Shown here one piece after another: positions 20,461 through 25,306 of a stretch of DNA of 64,000 nucleotides. The DNA is taken from contig NZ_JANKZL010000003.1 of the NCBI RefSeq assembly GCF_027568395.1, positions 1 to 64,000 on the forward strand, given 5' to 3'. The notes beneath the pieces are model-generated. The model searched no databases, had not been told where the DNA came from, and was given only the letters and a program-made list of their open reading frames with translations. Made by a program: the position numbers and the translations under genes. How positions within the stretch are numbered: position 1 is the stretch's first letter; the number at the start of each line of letters is the position of its first letter. This DNA comes from Aminobacter sp. HY435 (GTDB lineage: Bacteria > Pseudomonadota > Alphaproteobacteria > Rhizobiales > Rhizobiaceae).

Positions 20461-21069
20461 TTAGTAGAGCGGCTCCTCGAAGAGCATCGTATCGCCGTCC
20501 ATCAGCGCCTTGATCTGGGCACTGCCATCTCTGTCCACCGCGACCTTGACGCCGAAGCTGCGCAATTCGGGCTCCGCCCCGGCATTGCGCCGACGCATTT
20601 CTTCCTCGATCGCCAAACCTTCGCCTTCCGGCACATAATAGCGTTCGATGCCGTAGTCGACTGCGATGGTCGAGCCGGGCGACAGGCTCCAGCCACTGGA
20701 GACAGTGCCGCGGATGTCGACTTCGTCGGCGCCAGCAACGGTTGAATCGATGCCGAGCCAGGCCGTGCTGGCGCTCCAATAACCATCGGCACCCTTCTTG
20801 AGCCTGACGACAATCGGGCCTTCGGCCGAGGCGAGTTCGCCCTGAGGCAGATTTTCCACCTTTTCGACCGGAATGCGCGAGATGTCATAGCCGAGCCGGA
20901 CATAGTCGCCGCGCAGCAGGTCGCGCGGATCGACGGGCTCGACCTTGAGCAGCACTTCCGCACCATCCCGAAGAACGGCAGCCCGCCCAGCGATCATCCA
21001 GCCGAGAAAACCGATCTGCACAAGCGCCAGTGCGATGGCGGCAACAACAAGCCTGTAGCGGGACATCAT
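20461..21069 (-). CDS. GDYXXLXY-domain membrane-anchored protein
   Basis: This 202-aa protein has one N-terminal membrane helix (LVVAAIALALVQIGFLGWMI) and then the family motif RGDYVRLGYDIS (G-D-Y-x-x-L-x-Y) at about residue 55, which gives the family its name. The remainder would be periplasmic. Its start overlaps the stop of the upstream DUF2157 gene by 4 bp. Pairs of DUF2157 and GDYXXLXY genes are common in proteobacteria, but their function is not known. Confidence 0.82.
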   Translation of the reverse strand: MMSRYRLVVAAIALALVQIGFLGWMIAGRAAVLRDGAEVLLKVEPVDPRDLLRGDYVRLGYDISRIPVEKVENLPQGELASAEGPIVVRLKKGADGYWSASTAWLGIDSTVAGADEVDIRGTVSSGWSLSPGSTIAVDYGIERYYVPEGEGLAIEEEMRRRNAGAEPELRSFGVKVAVDRDGSAQIKALMDGDTMLFEEPLY

Positions 21070-22169
21070 GCGTTTCCTCCAGCGAGTTGAGGCCTCATGC
21101 GGCGTTCGATCCGGATGATCGCATAGGCGAGCCCGGCCAGGATGACTGCAGCCGCGAAGAAGAAGCCCGCAGTGCCCAGCATGGAGCCGACGGTCACGCC
21201 GTAGACGATCGCCAACTGGAACGCGAAGCCGAGATAGGCGATCCAGCGCAGCGCACGGCTTTCGCGCCCCAGGAAGACAATGACCGCCGCGATCACCGCA
21301 AGCGCAATAGCCGAAGCAACTACAAAACCGCCGTCGTCGGCCAGGTCGACCTGCAAGATGCCGATGCCGGTGAGGAAGCCGATCAGCCCATGCAGCGGCA
21401 GCCGGCCTCCCAGTTGCAAGATGTGCTCGACCTGGACCGGCGCCAGCGCGGCAACGGCCAGCACGGCCGCCGATACGACGGCAAGGACGGTCGCGATCTC
21501 GAACGTATCGTAGTGCAGCGCCAGCAGGAGCGCGTAAAAGATGAGAGACAGCACGATCAGGTGGCGGGCAGCCATGCTACGCGTCCACAGCGACAACCCC
21601 CACAGCACCGCCATCAGAACCGGAAACAGGTGCGGGAATGCCTCTCGGCGGAAGAACTCGAAACCCTTCAGCACCAGCCATGCATCGGCGATGCCGACCG
21701 CGGCGACCGTCAGGGCATGCGAGCGCAATGCCGCAGCGGCGATTGCCGTGCCTATGCCCCAGGTCAGGACTGCCGAGGCTTCGTCGCCGGAGAAGTGATA
21801 CATCTGGCCGATCAACGCGATCGAGCCGCCAAAGGCAGCCGCAGCAACCAGCCACAGCGCTTCGCCAAAGCCAAGGTTGCCACGCAGCTTGATTGCCGCG
21901 CCGCCGACATAACCGGCAAGGATGACCGCAAACAGCGCGGCCACGCGCACCGCGCGCGGGATGGCTTCCCAGTTCGCGGCGACAAGAATGAGTATCGCCG
22001 CGCCGAACAACAGCGCAGCCATGATCGCCAGGATCGAACCGAAATCGAGGCCGCTGCGTTCCCTGGTTTCGACGTCGCGGACCAGCGTATCGGCGGTTGC
22101 GCCATCGACAAGCCCGCTTTCGACCCAGCGAGCAATGTCCTTCTTCACCTTGGTGGCATAGCTTGCCAT
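21066..22169 (-). CDS. DUF2157 polytopic membrane protein
   Basis: A 367-aa protein with a soluble N-terminus of about 45 residues (KKDIARWVESGLVDGATADTLVRD, the conserved DUF2157 head) followed by about 10-12 membrane helices, beginning with FGSILAIMAALLFGAAILILV. It is translationally coupled to the GDYXXLXY gene, so the two likely form one membrane complex. Function unknown; a role in envelope stress or transport would be a guess. Confidence 0.85.
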   Translation of the reverse strand: MASYATKVKKDIARWVESGLVDGATADTLVRDVETRERSGLDFGSILAIMAALLFGAAILILVAANWEAIPRAVRVAALFAVILAGYVGGAAIKLRGNLGFGEALWLVAAAAFGGSIALIGQMYHFSGDEASAVLTWGIGTAIAAAALRSHALTVAAVGIADAWLVLKGFEFFRREAFPHLFPVLMAVLWGLSLWTRSMAARHLIVLSLIFYALLLALHYDTFEIATVLAVVSAAVLAVAALAPVQVEHILQLGGRLPLHGLIGFLTGIGILQVDLADDGGFVVASAIALAVIAAVIVFLGRESRALRWIAYLGFAFQLAIVYGVTVGSMLGTAGFFFAAAVILAGLAYAIIRIERRMRPQLAGGNA

Positions 22170-22319
22170 GCGTCACTGTCCCCCATCATGCACTGCGGTA
22201 TCGGTCCAAGCCGTTGGCTATTATGGCGGAATCTCGCCTCGGTCACAATTATGACCAAACCGTAAATGTCCATTAATGTTGCATTGCACAAAACGCATTG
22301 CTGCCATGCGAGCATAGCG

Positions 22320-22348
22320 CTTCATTTTTGTGCAAGGCCATCCTATCT
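22320..22348 (+). promoter_or_regulatory. Possible RpoH-type promoter of the DUF1127/sRNA operon
   Basis: CTTCAT at 22320-22325 and CCTATCT at 22342-22348, 16 bp apart, resemble alphaproteobacterial sigma-32 (RpoH) elements (CTTGAA-like / CCTATnT). The -35 match is imperfect. In Rhodobacter the equivalent DUF1127/cuckoo-RNA operon is stress-induced through RpoH sigma factors, which is why I looked here. Confidence 0.35.
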
Positions 22349-22394
22349 ACGCCCCGTACACAGAAGAGCGAAAAAAGACGAACGGGATACGAAG

Positions 22395-22535
22395 ATGAAC
22401 CTGATCCGCAACTACCGCAACTGGCGCCGCTACCGTGAAACCGTCTCCGAGCTGAGCCGCCTGTCGAACCGTGAATTGACCGACCTGGGCATCACCCGCA
22501 GCGACATTCATTTCGTCGCGCGCAAGGCCGTCTGA
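22395..22535 (+). CDS. DUF1127 small protein 1
   Basis: A 46-aa DUF1127 protein: arginine/tyrosine-rich start NYRNWRRYRETVSEL, then the signature LSNRELTDLGITRSDI, ending FVARKAV. The family is restricted mainly to proteobacteria, and short members bind RNA or affect RNA turnover and stress responses in Rhodobacter (CcaF1) and Agrobacterium. The ATG follows GGGATACGAAG. It is the first gene of an apparent operon with a paralogue and three sRNA units. Confidence 0.9.
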   Translation: MNLIRNYRNWRRYRETVSELSRLSNRELTDLGITRSDIHFVARKAV

Positions 22536-22580
22536 TAGCCCTACACCGAACCAACCGTACGAACCGAAAAGAGAACGAAA

Positions 22581-22721
22581 ATGAACTTGCTCCGCACCTA
22601 CCGTAACTGGCGCGCTTATCGCGAGACGGTAAACGAGCTGGGCCGTCTGTCCAACCGCCAGCTTGCCGACCTCGGCATCAACCGCGGTGAAATCTCGGCG
22701 ATCGCTCGTCGCGCCATCTAA
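22581..22721 (+). CDS. DUF1127 small protein 2
   Basis: This 46-aa paralogue of the preceding protein begins MNLLRTYRNWRAYRETVNEL and has LSNRQLADLGINRGEIS and the end AIARRAI. It is the same length and is separated from copy 1 by 45 bp, so tandem duplication is evident. It is the gene directly upstream of the stem-loop array, the place occupied by ccaF1 relative to CcsR1-4 in Rhodobacter sphaeroides. Confidence 0.9.
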   Translation: MNLLRTYRNWRAYRETVNELGRLSNRQLADLGINRGEISAIARRAI

Positions 22722-22737
22722 TTCAAGGTTTCCGCCA

Positions 22738-22841
22738 GGGTCGACCTCCTCCCCGACCCTTCCGGATCGGTCAGCTTACTCCTCCTCCCAACGAGCTGAC
22801 CACCCTAACACACCCGCCGGATCTCCTCCCCCGGCGGGTGT
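22738..22841 (+). ncRNA. Cuckoo/CcsR-type sRNA unit A (three CCUCC-loop hairpins)
   Basis: Three consecutive hairpins: 22738-22759 (GGGTCG stem, loop ACCTCCTCCC), 22769-22801 (GGTCAGCT/AGCTGACC, loop with CTCCTCCTCCC) and 22810-22841 (11-bp stem ACACCCGCCGG, loop ATCTCCTCCC). Each loop presents an anti-Shine-Dalgarno-like CCTCC. It begins 17 bp after the second DUF1127 stop, so the RNA is probably processed from that mRNA. This unit is the most diverged of the three. Confidence 0.8.
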
Positions 22842-22895
22842 CGTTTCCGACAAGAGTTTCGCCCTCTTTCATCTGGCGAAAAGAATTTTGCCTGC

Positions 22896-22998
22896 GCCGA
22901 CCTCCTCCCCGGCAAAGGCGAATAGGTCAGCTTCCTCCTCCTCCCTGAGGCTGACCACCATAACGACGCCCGCCGGCTCTCCTCCCTCCGGCGGGCGT
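22896..22998 (+). ncRNA. Cuckoo/CcsR-type sRNA unit B
   Basis: Hairpins at 22896-22913 (GCCG stem, loop ACCTCCTCCC), 22925-22956 (GGTCAGCTTC/GAGGCTGACC, loop of CTCC repeats) and 22966-22998 (11-bp stem ACGCCCGCCGG, loop CTCTCCTCCCT). The last stem could also act as a transcript 3' end. A leader of about 30 bp containing CATCTGGCGAAAAG is shared with unit C. Confidence 0.8.
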
Positions 22999-23052
22999 TG
23001 TTCTCCAAAAGAGCTTCGTCCTCTTTCATCTGGCGAAAAGAATTTTGCCTGC

Positions 23053-23155
23053 GCCGACCTCCTCCCCGGCAAAGGCGAATAGGTCAGCTTCTTCCTCCTC
23101 CCTGAGGCTGACCACCATAACGACGCCCGCCGGCTCTCCTCCCTCCGGCGGGCGT
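23053..23155 (+). ncRNA. Cuckoo/CcsR-type sRNA unit C
   Basis: A near-identical copy of unit B, with hairpins at 23053-23070, 23082-23113 and 23123-23155; the main change is in the second loop (CTTCCTCCTCCCT). It ends the array. The convergent downstream gene stops at 23190, so the final 11-bp stem probably ends transcription. Confidence 0.8.
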
Positions 23156-23189
23156 TGTCGTGTCTGGTGGTCTGGTAAGTCCACGATCG

Positions 23190-23795
23190 TCAGTCCAGCG
23201 CGCCGCTTTCGAGAACGCCGCGCTGCTTCCACTCATTGAGTGGAAGGATGTCCGGCGCGCCACCCATCGGCGCATACCAAGAATCGACTGCCCATTTGAC
23301 GCCGTCGGGCGAACTGACCACCGCCGTCCAGTGGGGGTATCTTCCATCGAGCAGAAATCCGCGCGAGGTGCGCGACTGGACCTTGTGATGCTTGAGTAGC
23401 CCGCGCCCCTGGAGATAGCGCAGCAATGCATCGGTGTTGGTCGACTCGTCGACGCAATCCATCTGGCCCTTGATCTTGGACGCCCCGAACTCGGATTTCG
23501 GCTGGTCACGCACGCCCGTCACCTGCTGCGCGCGCTTTTCGAAATAGCTCACCGCTTTGGCAATCGCCGCGCGTTCGGCGGCGGGCGAGGCCCTGCCGGC
23601 AGAAAGGATCGCGGCAAGGCGCCTGGCGTCGGCCGGCCCAAGGTCGAGCCTGGCGCGAAAGGCGCAGCCATAACCGTGGCAAATAGTCAGGCGGGCTGCG
23701 CCGGACGCCGCATTGGCTGGTTGGAAAAAGCTGCCGGCGACGGACATTGCAAGTGCGGCAACAAGCGACAGATGAGGAATTGCGATCATCGTCAT
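23190..23795 (-). CDS. Exported conserved hypothetical protein, about 201 aa
   Basis: It begins with a signal peptide ([24 protein letters not shown], cleavage near ANA/AS). The mature part has CHGYGC with two Cys, a helical stretch around [40 protein letters not shown] and HWTAVV...[11 protein letters not shown]. The CVDESTN and HWTAV...VDSW pattern recalls a papain-like or transglutaminase-like arrangement (Cys, His, Asp in order), but I cannot assign the family with confidence. It is divergent from trmFO. Confidence 0.65.
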
Positions 23796-23896
23796 GGGCG
23801 CATCATAGGAGGCGCGGCGCATCATCCGCAAGGCTGTGGACCTCCGAGCGAAGCGCAATCGTTGCATTCCCAACACCAAGGGATTATTCCGGCCCC

Positions 23897-25306
23897 ATGA
23901 GCACAAAACCTATTCACATCGTCGGCGGCGGCCTCGCCGGTTCGGAAGCAGCATGGCAGGCGGCGGAGGCTGGTGTACCCGTCATCCTGCATGAAATGCG
24001 TGGCGCGCGCGGCACCGACGCCCACAAGACCGATGGCCTTGCCGAACTGGTCTGCTCCAATTCGTTCCGCTCAGATGACGCAGAAACCAACGCGGTGGGG
24101 CTGCTGCACGCCGAAATGCGGCTTGCCAACTCGCTGATCATGTCGTCGGGCGACGCCAACCAGGTTCCGGCCGGCGGCGCATTGGCCGTCGACCGCGACG
24201 GCTTTTCCGATGCCGTGACCGCGCGGCTCGAGGCGCACCCGCTGATCACCATCGTGCGCGAGGAAATCACCGGCCTGCCGCCAGCCGACTGGGACCAGAC
24301 GATTATCGCCACGGGCCCGCTGACGGCGCCTTCCCTGGCCGAGGCCATCGCCGCCGGAACCTCGTCGGATGCGCTCGCCTTCTTCGACGCGATCGCGCCG
24401 ATCGTGCATTTCGACAGCATCGATATGACCACCTGCTGGTTCCAGTCGCGCTACGACAAGGTCGGGCCCGGCGGAACCGGCAAGGACTACATCAACTGCC
24501 CGATGGACAAGGCGCAATACGAGGCCTTCGTGCAGGCACTGATGGACGGCCAGAAGACCGAATTCAAGGAATGGGAAGGCACACCCTATTTCGACGGCTG
24601 CCTGCCGATCGAGGTGATGGCGGAACGCGGTCCGGAAACGCTGCGCCACGGCCCGATGAAGCCGATGGGCCTGACCAACGAGCACAACCCCGAGGTCAAG
24701 GCCTATGCGGTGGTTCAGCTCCGTCAGGACAATGCGCTCGGCACGCTCTACAACATGGTCGGCTTCCAGACCAAGCTGAAGCATGGCGAACAGGTACGCA
24801 TCTTCCGCATGATCCCCGGCATGGAGAATGCCGAGTTCGCGCGCCTCGGCGGCCTGCACCGCAACACCTATCTCAATTCGCCGACGCTGCTCGACCCGTC
24901 GCTGCAGTTGAGGTCGCGCCCCGGCCTGCGCTTCGCCGGCCAGATCACCGGCTGCGAGGGCTATGTAGAGAGCGCCGCCATCGGCCTGTTGGCCGGACGC
25001 TTCGCCGCGGCCGAGCGCCTTGGCCGGACGATGACGCCGCCGCCTGCCACCACGGCCTTCGGCGCGCTGCTCAACCACATCACCGGCGGGCACCTGGTTT
25101 CCCATGACGAGCCCGGCAAGCGCTCATTCCAGCCGATGAACGTCAATTTCGGCCTGTTCCCCGAGATCGAGGCGCCCAGGGTCGAAGGCAAGCGCCTGCG
25201 CGGCAAGGAAAAGACCATCGCCAAGAAGAAGGCGATGACCGGACGCGCGCTGGCCGACTGCCGCGCCTGGCTCGGCCTCGGCCCAGTGGCGCAGGCCGCC
25301 GAATAG
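23897..25306 (+). CDS. trmFO: tRNA (uracil-5-)-methyltransferase TrmFO, folate/FAD-dependent
   Basis: It makes m5U54 in the T-loop of tRNAs with methylene-tetrahydrofolate and FADH2. The 469-aa protein has the N-terminal FAD-binding Rossmann motif [14 protein letters not shown], the conserved [11 protein letters not shown] segment, and [27 protein letters not shown] with the conserved Cys of the family. The late block [22 protein letters not shown] is also characteristic. The start at 23897 puts the FAD motif at residue 8, as in homologues. Confidence 0.95.

Follow-up and report, generated by a model that had tools for sequence, protein, structure and literature searches.

A 64,000-nt stretch of DNA from Aminobacter sp. 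HY435 (contig NZ_JANKZL010000003.1; hereafter the window) contains an array of three tandem small RNA (sRNA) units of the ar14 family (RF02344, NfeR1 type), located directly behind two DUF1127 genes and on the same strand. The region upstream of these genes holds a conserved block that matches a PhaR box joined to a VtlR/LsrB-type box, a new element of this analysis. We consider it probable that the locus is an operon under stress and nutrient regulation that is gated by carbon storage and whose anti-Shine-Dalgarno sRNAs silence mRNAs for transport. The family of the RNAs, their structure and its covariation, the synteny and the enrichment of the motifs could all be established by computation. 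The initial observation is sound and the locus ordinary in kind, an alpha-r14 array in a CIN1-type DUF1127 operon; among the matches listed for the open-licence literature, the link to carbon storage was not found in print.

The two DUF1127 genes (22395..22535 and 22581..22721, both +) encode 46 aa each and match PF06568 with E-values of 3.3e-17 and 8.2e-17. Unit A (22726..22846, +) begins 4 nt past the stop codon of the second gene and is followed by unit B (22883..23003, +) and unit C (23040..23160, +), which gives three units of about 121 nt with a repeat period of 156–157 nt. The Rfam covariance model for ar14 scores the units at 88.6, 85.0 and 82.1 bits (cut-off 58.8) and found no match in any of 14 named control genomes; the suhB model (RF00519) had no match at gathering score within the window. 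The predicted fold of each unit consists of three hairpins that present the motif in their loops (z of −7.2, −7.4 and −7.9 for A, B and C; 0 of 200 shuffles equally stable), and all nine hairpins are kept when the array is folded as a single 449-nt strand (z = −11). The loops lie at 22745–22753, 22781–22789 and 22823–22830 in unit A, at 22901–22909, 22937–22945 and 22979–22986 in unit B, and at 23058–23066, 23094–23102 and 23136–23143 in unit C. The initial annotation had described a DUF1127 pair followed by three units of three hairpins, and Pfam, folding and Rfam bear out both this plan and its coordinates. CCTCC is indeed present in all nine loops, but the loops had been said to be only mostly of one sequence, while CTCCTCCC occurs in all nine. 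The window contains 11 CTCCTCCC sites on both strands, nine of which are the array loops (+ strand, 22746–23143); 2.3 would be expected in the whole window, and none of 100 shuffles reached 11. Six of the seven CCTCCTCCC sites in the window also fall within the array. The units are separated by linkers A–B (22847..22882, +), where a weak 7-bp hairpin is possible (z only −1.4), and B–C (23004..23039, +), both of which are candidate processing sites. CCTCTTTCATCTGGCGAAAA is present in both linkers.

The RNA structure is backed by covariation. All three units have the alpha-r14 form of three hairpins with CCUCCUCCC unpaired, the third loop of every unit being CTCCTCCC minus the leading C. We compared 45 units of this genus and of others. 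Exactly three motif clusters are present in 42 of them, 128 of the 136 clusters are at least 80% unpaired, and the mean unpaired probability is 0.96 in the clusters versus 0.27 in the remaining RNA. In the wide alignment of these 45 units, all 19 pairs of hairpins 2 and 3 have changed on both sides, and 94.6% of the cells are paired, versus 78% in shuffles and at most 52% with the partners slid. Hairpin 1 was not recovered by RNAalifold on the wide alignment and finds its support instead in a genus alignment of 28 units, where all three hairpins are supported with 99.1% of cells paired and 37 double-change cells (9.7 in shuffles), and where four of five covariation measures exceed all 500 shuffles. 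The invariant columns of the wide alignment sit in loops. Stems conserved at the expense of the loops had been named beforehand as an outcome that would speak against the array; what we observed is the reverse, near-invariant loops on stems that vary with compensation.

Such sequence-variable stems maintained by compensation are a mark of alpha-r14 RNAs, which are described with three hairpins, CCUCCUCCC unpaired in each, and stems highly variable in sequence (PMC10746234). NfeR1 of Sinorhizobium meliloti, a member of this family, is reported to silence ntrB by pairing at the translation initiation region, with three mutually redundant motifs (PMC10746234). The suggestion that three loops per unit are an unusual form therefore fails, because the family has already been described with three hairpins (PMC10746234) and all three units pass its Rfam cut-off. 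The array and NfeR1 (Smr14C2) have in common the three hairpins, the CCUCCUCCC loops, the length of about 120 nt and the hypervariable stems, as well as the vicinity of DUF1127 genes in related loci and the existence of multiple copies in a genome (S. meliloti has 6). They differ in that the three units of the window stand in tandem within an operon that also has DUF1127 genes and a PhaR box, whereas NfeR1 has its own LsrB/NtrC-controlled promoter (PMC10746234).

The array is old, because the DUF1127 pair with two or three units is present in all nine same-genus genomes examined (two units in G003 and G004, three in the other seven). Units B and C form a 157-nt direct repeat of 94% identity, which the initial annotation had taken for a fresh duplication in an expanding array. 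Their near-identity is recent or maintained, but with two to three units in all nine relatives an expansion peculiar to this genome is rejected. In the window the identity between units B and C is 0.953, versus 0.865 (B) and 0.823 (C) for the best orthologs. Across the eight genomes with a C unit, the within-genome B–C identity ranges from 0.74 to 0.95 and exceeds the mean between-genome B–B identity in seven, although a clear margin over the best ortholog is seen in the window's genome alone. Since units B and C are more alike there than either is to its best ortholog, homogenisation through conversion, or a re-duplication, probably accounts for their near-identity in this genome. Nor is the array new or the largest of its kind. 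We scanned 80 loci from named genomes, keeping weak ar14 matches down to E 0.006 and one truncated match (L046), with a covariance model (R1) built partly from units of genomes also present in the survey, L131 being probably the locus L105. Of the 80 genomes, 48 have ar14 no more than 6 kb from trmFO, with one unit in 21 loci, two in 22 (not always in tandem) and three in 3; one Aurantimonas locus (L105) has four units, and another has six in tandem behind a single DUF1127 gene (L086:5087-5893).

An alignment of 15 upstream regions, 10 from this genus and 5 from others, revealed one strongly conserved block before the core promoter, and beyond the genus little else is conserved upstream. The block contains the PhaR-type box TGCATTGCACAA (22280..22291, +), which agrees in 12 of 12 positions with TGCRNYGCASMA, the PhaR consensus derived in Bradyrhizobium from footprints and promoter alignment (PMC6201568). 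The box is perfect in 14 of the 15 regions and has one mismatch in the last (L136). The box and a site in the phaP2 promoter of S. meliloti share TTGCATTGCACA; PhaR is reported to bind this promoter in gel shifts (PMC12542648). To quantify the association, we examined the 250 nt upstream of each DUF1127 gene or ar14 unit that starts a group in the 48 named ar14 loci, and excluded from the counts the 32 loci without an ar14 match. Of the 48 loci, 34 have a perfect PhaR consensus upstream. The 17.0 kb of upstream sequence hold 51 matches and the remaining 596 kb hold 26, compared with 0 and 4 for the reversed pattern. Shuffled regions gave a mean of 0.1 loci with a box (maximum 2), and random windows of the same loci a mean of 1.85 (maximum 6 of 48), each in 200 draws. 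The density of matches is 3.0 per kb in these upstream regions and 0.17 per kb before mechanically called open reading frames (ORFs) of at least 250 aa.

In the window's own genome (G000, 4.6 Mb) the consensus occurs 118 times and the reversed control 27 times. A 23-mer from the conserved block, searched with up to 3 mismatches, has only three sites there: the array, an ar14 copy on contig C27 and a phasin-ar14 pair on C5. The same genome encodes at C25:344939 a PHB_acc_N domain (PF07879, E 9.4e-30), which we take to be PhaR from the known use of this family, and a PhaR box lies 135 bp before the start of this domain match.

Over the cut-off, this genome has five ar14 copies, which are distributed among three loci; a further match on C21 (36 bits, below the cut-off) has a single motif and was treated as spurious. 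On C5, a Phasin_2 gene (PF09361, E 2e-16) with two PhaR boxes in its promoter is followed by an ar14 copy (L143:1984-2099, −) that begins 13 nt past the stop codon and would be part of the phasin transcript. The pair recurs in all nine same-genus relatives and in five further genera. We examined the 30 best-scoring phasin loci of a longer list, with ORF starts chosen by a crude script and PhaR boxes counted from −350 to +120. In 15 of these best 30 loci an ar14 follows the phasin gene at a distance of 7–117 nt from the stop codon, a weak match in L202 (E 0.0065) not being counted. A PhaR box near the gene start was found in 29 of the 30, which serves as a check of the PhaR motif in this clade. 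The solitary C27 copy, which has no DUF1127 gene, was examined in its own genome and in six of the nine relatives; in all seven a perfect PhaR box precedes the first loop motif by about 95 nt. In the five phasin and C27-type loci scanned (L142, L143, L152, L159, L171) the PhaR box occurs without a VtlR box. Finally, the one suhB-type match over the cut-off in this genome (C29:53490-53561, L145) has a PhaR dyad just after a CTTGAC in its promoter and is probably MmgR (alpha-r8). In S. meliloti, the mmgR promoter is described with a PhaR (AniA) dyad, and MmgR is reported to be repressed by PhaR and to act on polyhydroxybutyrate (PHB; PMC12542648, PMC8401924). MmgR would be a comparable PhaR-repressed sRNA from another RNA family.

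The second half of the conserved block is the VtlR/LsrB-type box CATTGCTGCCATGCG (22296..22310, +), which agrees with CAATGCAGCCATGCA in 12 of 15 positions (motif per PMC12595884) and forms the palindrome GCAT-N7-ATGC just upstream of the −35 element. Boxes of this type with up to 3 mismatches occur in 23 of the 48 loci, 33 of them in the 17.0 kb upstream and 35 in the 596 kb (reversed pattern: 0 and 7). VtlR, the Brucella homologue of LsrB, is reported to activate three DUF1127 genes and AbcR2 (PMC12595884). This regulon resembles the window in having an LsrB-type activator box before DUF1127 genes and differs from it in that, as described in the accessible parts of the paper, it contains no ar14 array. 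A sequence TGCA-N6-GCAT, the LsrB-site form of the NfeR1 promoter (22285..22298, +; motif per PMC10746234), overlaps the PhaR box and spans the junction of the PhaR-type and VtlR-type halves. It is found upstream in 32 of the 48 loci, with 47 matches there compared with 42 elsewhere.

The mechanism that we infer from these observations covers a single transcript and its processing, binding by PhaR and LsrB, the targets and the physiological role. A single promoter would give rise to a transcript that starts near 22355, runs through the DUF1127 pair and the three units, and ends at the terminator-like hairpin at about 23160. The linkers are likely cut sites that would release RNAs of about 120 nt. 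The three interchangeable CCUCCUCCC-type loops of each RNA would pair with the Shine-Dalgarno regions of mRNAs, chiefly for transport and metabolism, and block their translation, and nine equivalent loops would raise the dose of the anti-Shine-Dalgarno motif per transcript. Transcription would be gated by the composite element, with the VtlR/LsrB-type activator box beside the −35 and the PhaR box adjoining it. PhaR would repress until accumulating PHB titrates it away, and PhaR and LsrB/VtlR would compete where their boxes adjoin, in a situation comparable to that of NtrC and LsrB at NfeR1. The phasin gene with its trailing ar14 and the solitary ar14 gene appear to be members of the same PhaR regulon. 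Several of these steps are reported in relatives, namely anti-Shine-Dalgarno silencing by NfeR1, titration of PhaR by PHB, activation of NfeR1 by LsrB and activation of DUF1127 genes by VtlR. In S. meliloti, accumulated PHB is described as sequestering PhaR and lifting repression (PMC12542648). The tables of the same study list SMc02051 as rising without PhaR (1.51 and 4.63) and give for it the site CATGGGTGCGATGCAGCATTA, marked NE (PMC12542648). Exactly this site precedes the DUF1127 gene at L080:5144, and by inference SMc02051 is therefore a DUF1127 gene of an ar14 neighbourhood.

As candidate targets, we searched for leaders with a perfect 9-nt match to the loops. GGGAGGAGG occurs 2–9 nt before an ATG in only three places in the genome (reversed control: 1), preceding genes for a Peripla_BP_6 protein, an ABC ATPase and a short-chain dehydrogenase. 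Two of the three thus encode transport components, which agrees with the NfeR1 target class, although two genes of three are too few for proof.

Several observations weigh against this interpretation. The ar14 loci are related, so the motif counts are not independent and 34 of 48 does not stand for 34 independent events; in addition, the PhaR box is nearly palindromic, and the 51 matches often include it on both strands. No perfect PhaR box was found upstream in 14 of the 48 loci, which include all three Brucellaceae-labelled ar14-DUF1127 loci (L055–L057), or at the NfeR1-like second ar14 of the Sinorhizobium-type loci inspected. The same holds for the 1.3 kb upstream of a further ar14 class in four relatives (L158, L161, L163, L167), of which no over-cut-off copy was found in the window's genome. 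Likewise, the target sample is small (3 sites versus 1 in the reversed control), the fifth covariation measure in the genus alignment, further pair types, was not above the shuffles (17 versus 20.3), and the T-tract behind unit C is interrupted in the window (TTGTCGTGTC) and in two of the nine same-genus relatives. We read NE for SMc02051 as not examined by gel shift, and the accessible text of the S. meliloti PhaR study makes no mention of DUF1127 or NfeR1 (PMC12542648). Finally, the PhaR and LsrB motifs have TGCA in common, so that one factor could explain both. Two other sources are silent on the matter: SMc, NfeR1 and PhaR are not mentioned in the accessible text of PMC12218461, nor are sRNA terms, SMc02051 or DUF1127 in the main text of PMC5596199. 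Among the matches listed for the open-licence literature, neither PhaR control of ar14/NfeR1-type sRNAs nor an ar14 behind a phasin gene was found in print, which is a weak negative.

In one alternative, which we regard as unlikely, the PhaR-like box is unused by PhaR, the conserved 31-bp element is one LsrB/VtlR site, and the operon responds solely to oxidative or carbon cues. The VtlR-type palindrome and TGCA-N6-GCAT do lie within one element, but the 12-mer fully agrees with the published PhaR consensus (PMC6201568). A VtlR-type box is present in two of the three Brucellaceae-labelled loci (L055 and L057), where the perfect PhaR box is absent; conversely, the five phasin and C27-type loci named above have the PhaR box without a VtlR box. 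NfeR1 is reported to be unable to do without LsrB, and VtlR has been termed the primary regulator of DUF1127 proteins (PMC12595884), whereas SMc02051, by inference a DUF1127 gene, rises in the absence of PhaR (PMC12542648).

Less likely still is a CcsR-like stress operon as in Rhodobacter sphaeroides, driven by RpoH, induced by heat or oxidative stress, and with the DUF1127 protein aiding processing. The putative core promoter, as judged from the sequence and the genus alignment, is CTTCAT-N17-CTATCT (22320..22348, +), which reads CTTCAa-N17-CTATCT genus-wide; a scan for E. coli-type promoters and terminators returned nothing on the + strand. CTTCAA and CTTCAT are one and two letters away from a CTTGAA −35, and this similarity counts in favour of such an operon. 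The gene order is identical, too: ccaF1-CcsR1-4, the CIN1 locus of the cuckoo RNAs, likewise consists of a DUF1127 gene and tandem homologous sRNAs in one operon, and in the window, as in all nine same-genus genomes examined, a short DUF1127 gene immediately precedes the sRNAs on their own strand. An RNA-binding function is ascribed to the DUF1127 protein CcaF1, and an RpoHI/RpoHII promoter to the R. sphaeroides operon (PMC10253847). Maturation that depends on RNase E and on the DUF1127 protein is taken as a further mark of this locus. The cuckoo/CcsR plan proposed by the initial annotation therefore stands as far as co-directional anti-Shine-Dalgarno sRNAs directly behind DUF1127 genes are concerned (CIN1 type, PMC10253847), but not for the RNAs themselves, which are of the ar14 three-hairpin type. 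The two-loop form that the initial annotation ascribes to CcsR RNAs is not seen, each unit having three loops. R. sphaeroides has four CcsR RNAs behind one 71-aa DUF1127 protein with an RpoHI/II promoter (PMC10253847), whereas in the window two proteins of 46 aa are encoded before units with three hairpins, and the promoter boxes differ. The binding partner of DUF1127 proteins, RNA or protein, is a matter of debate, and those of 47–48 aa in Agrobacterium are reported to act through protein contact (PMC12501420), which speaks against such an operon. For an RpoH promoter near 22320–22348 we found no support: the genus-wide core reads as given above, S. meliloti NfeR1 is listed as RpoD (PMC7143759), and the PhaR and VtlR/LsrB-type boxes are the strongest upstream signals.

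It is quite improbable that the array serves as a sponge or decoy that titrates mRNA leaders or an RNA chaperone in bulk, or that it is itself the target of a sponge RNA, as with CrfA in Caulobacter. Six units do stand in one array (L086), but array size varies between two and three units within the genus, and the array loops resemble the 16S anti-Shine-Dalgarno tail and are not known as a protein site, which counts against a sponge. For the bulk sequestration of RNA-binding proteins suggested in the initial annotation we found no support, though no test was aimed at it. In Caulobacter the siblings SisA-D have an anti-Shine-Dalgarno 10-mer in common and are inactivated by CrfA; they are comparable as sibling sRNAs with a shared motif and differ in being four, in their different expression, in the sponge RNA and in that no DUF1127 or PhaR link is described in the accessible text (PMC12559287). 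A role confined to protecting or processing the DUF1127 mRNA at its 3′ end, with no function in trans, is the least credible explanation: unit A lies just 4 nt from the stop codon and the terminal hairpin is terminator-like in relatives, but the nine CTCCTCCC loops sit on stems with compensatory change, ar14 also occurs without DUF1127 (C27) and behind a phasin gene, and ntrB is silenced by NfeR1 through these motifs (PMC10746234).

If the carbon-storage-gated operon is the correct interpretation, the PhaR link would tie energy storage to the control of nutrient uptake, and the PhaR plus LsrB/VtlR promoter together with the phasin-ar14 pair would join carbon storage, redox cues and transporter silencing in one hypothesis. 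A broader proposal, for which we judge the chances to be evenly balanced, is that the anti-Shine-Dalgarno sRNAs of the Rhizobiales (DUF1127-linked arrays, solitary and phasin-linked ar14 copies, MmgR) form one carbon-storage regulon, with the dose set by array length, that lowers uptake when stores are full. Northern blots under the conditions tested reliably detected only one of the six NfeR1 copies in S. meliloti (PMC7143759). PhaR repression of the other copies would fit, and such a regulon, if real, would explain why most S. meliloti ar14 copies looked silent in those conditions.

The array ends at 23160 according to the Rfam match to unit C, the last hairpin of which is terminator-like. 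In seven of the nine same-genus relatives the last unit is followed by a T-rich tail, TTGTCGTTTT or TTGTTGTTTT. Because the T-tract is interrupted in the window (23120–23170), read-through is possible towards the ORF at 23190–23906 (−). Downstream of the array lies an opposite-strand ORF without a Pfam match and then a TrmFO/GidA-type gene. Among the matches listed for TrmFO, the nearest with a name comes from Aminobacter anthyllidis, with 90% identity. On the upstream side, adjoining genes for a DUF2157 membrane protein and a GDYXXLXY protein (20461–22169, −) are divergent from the array.

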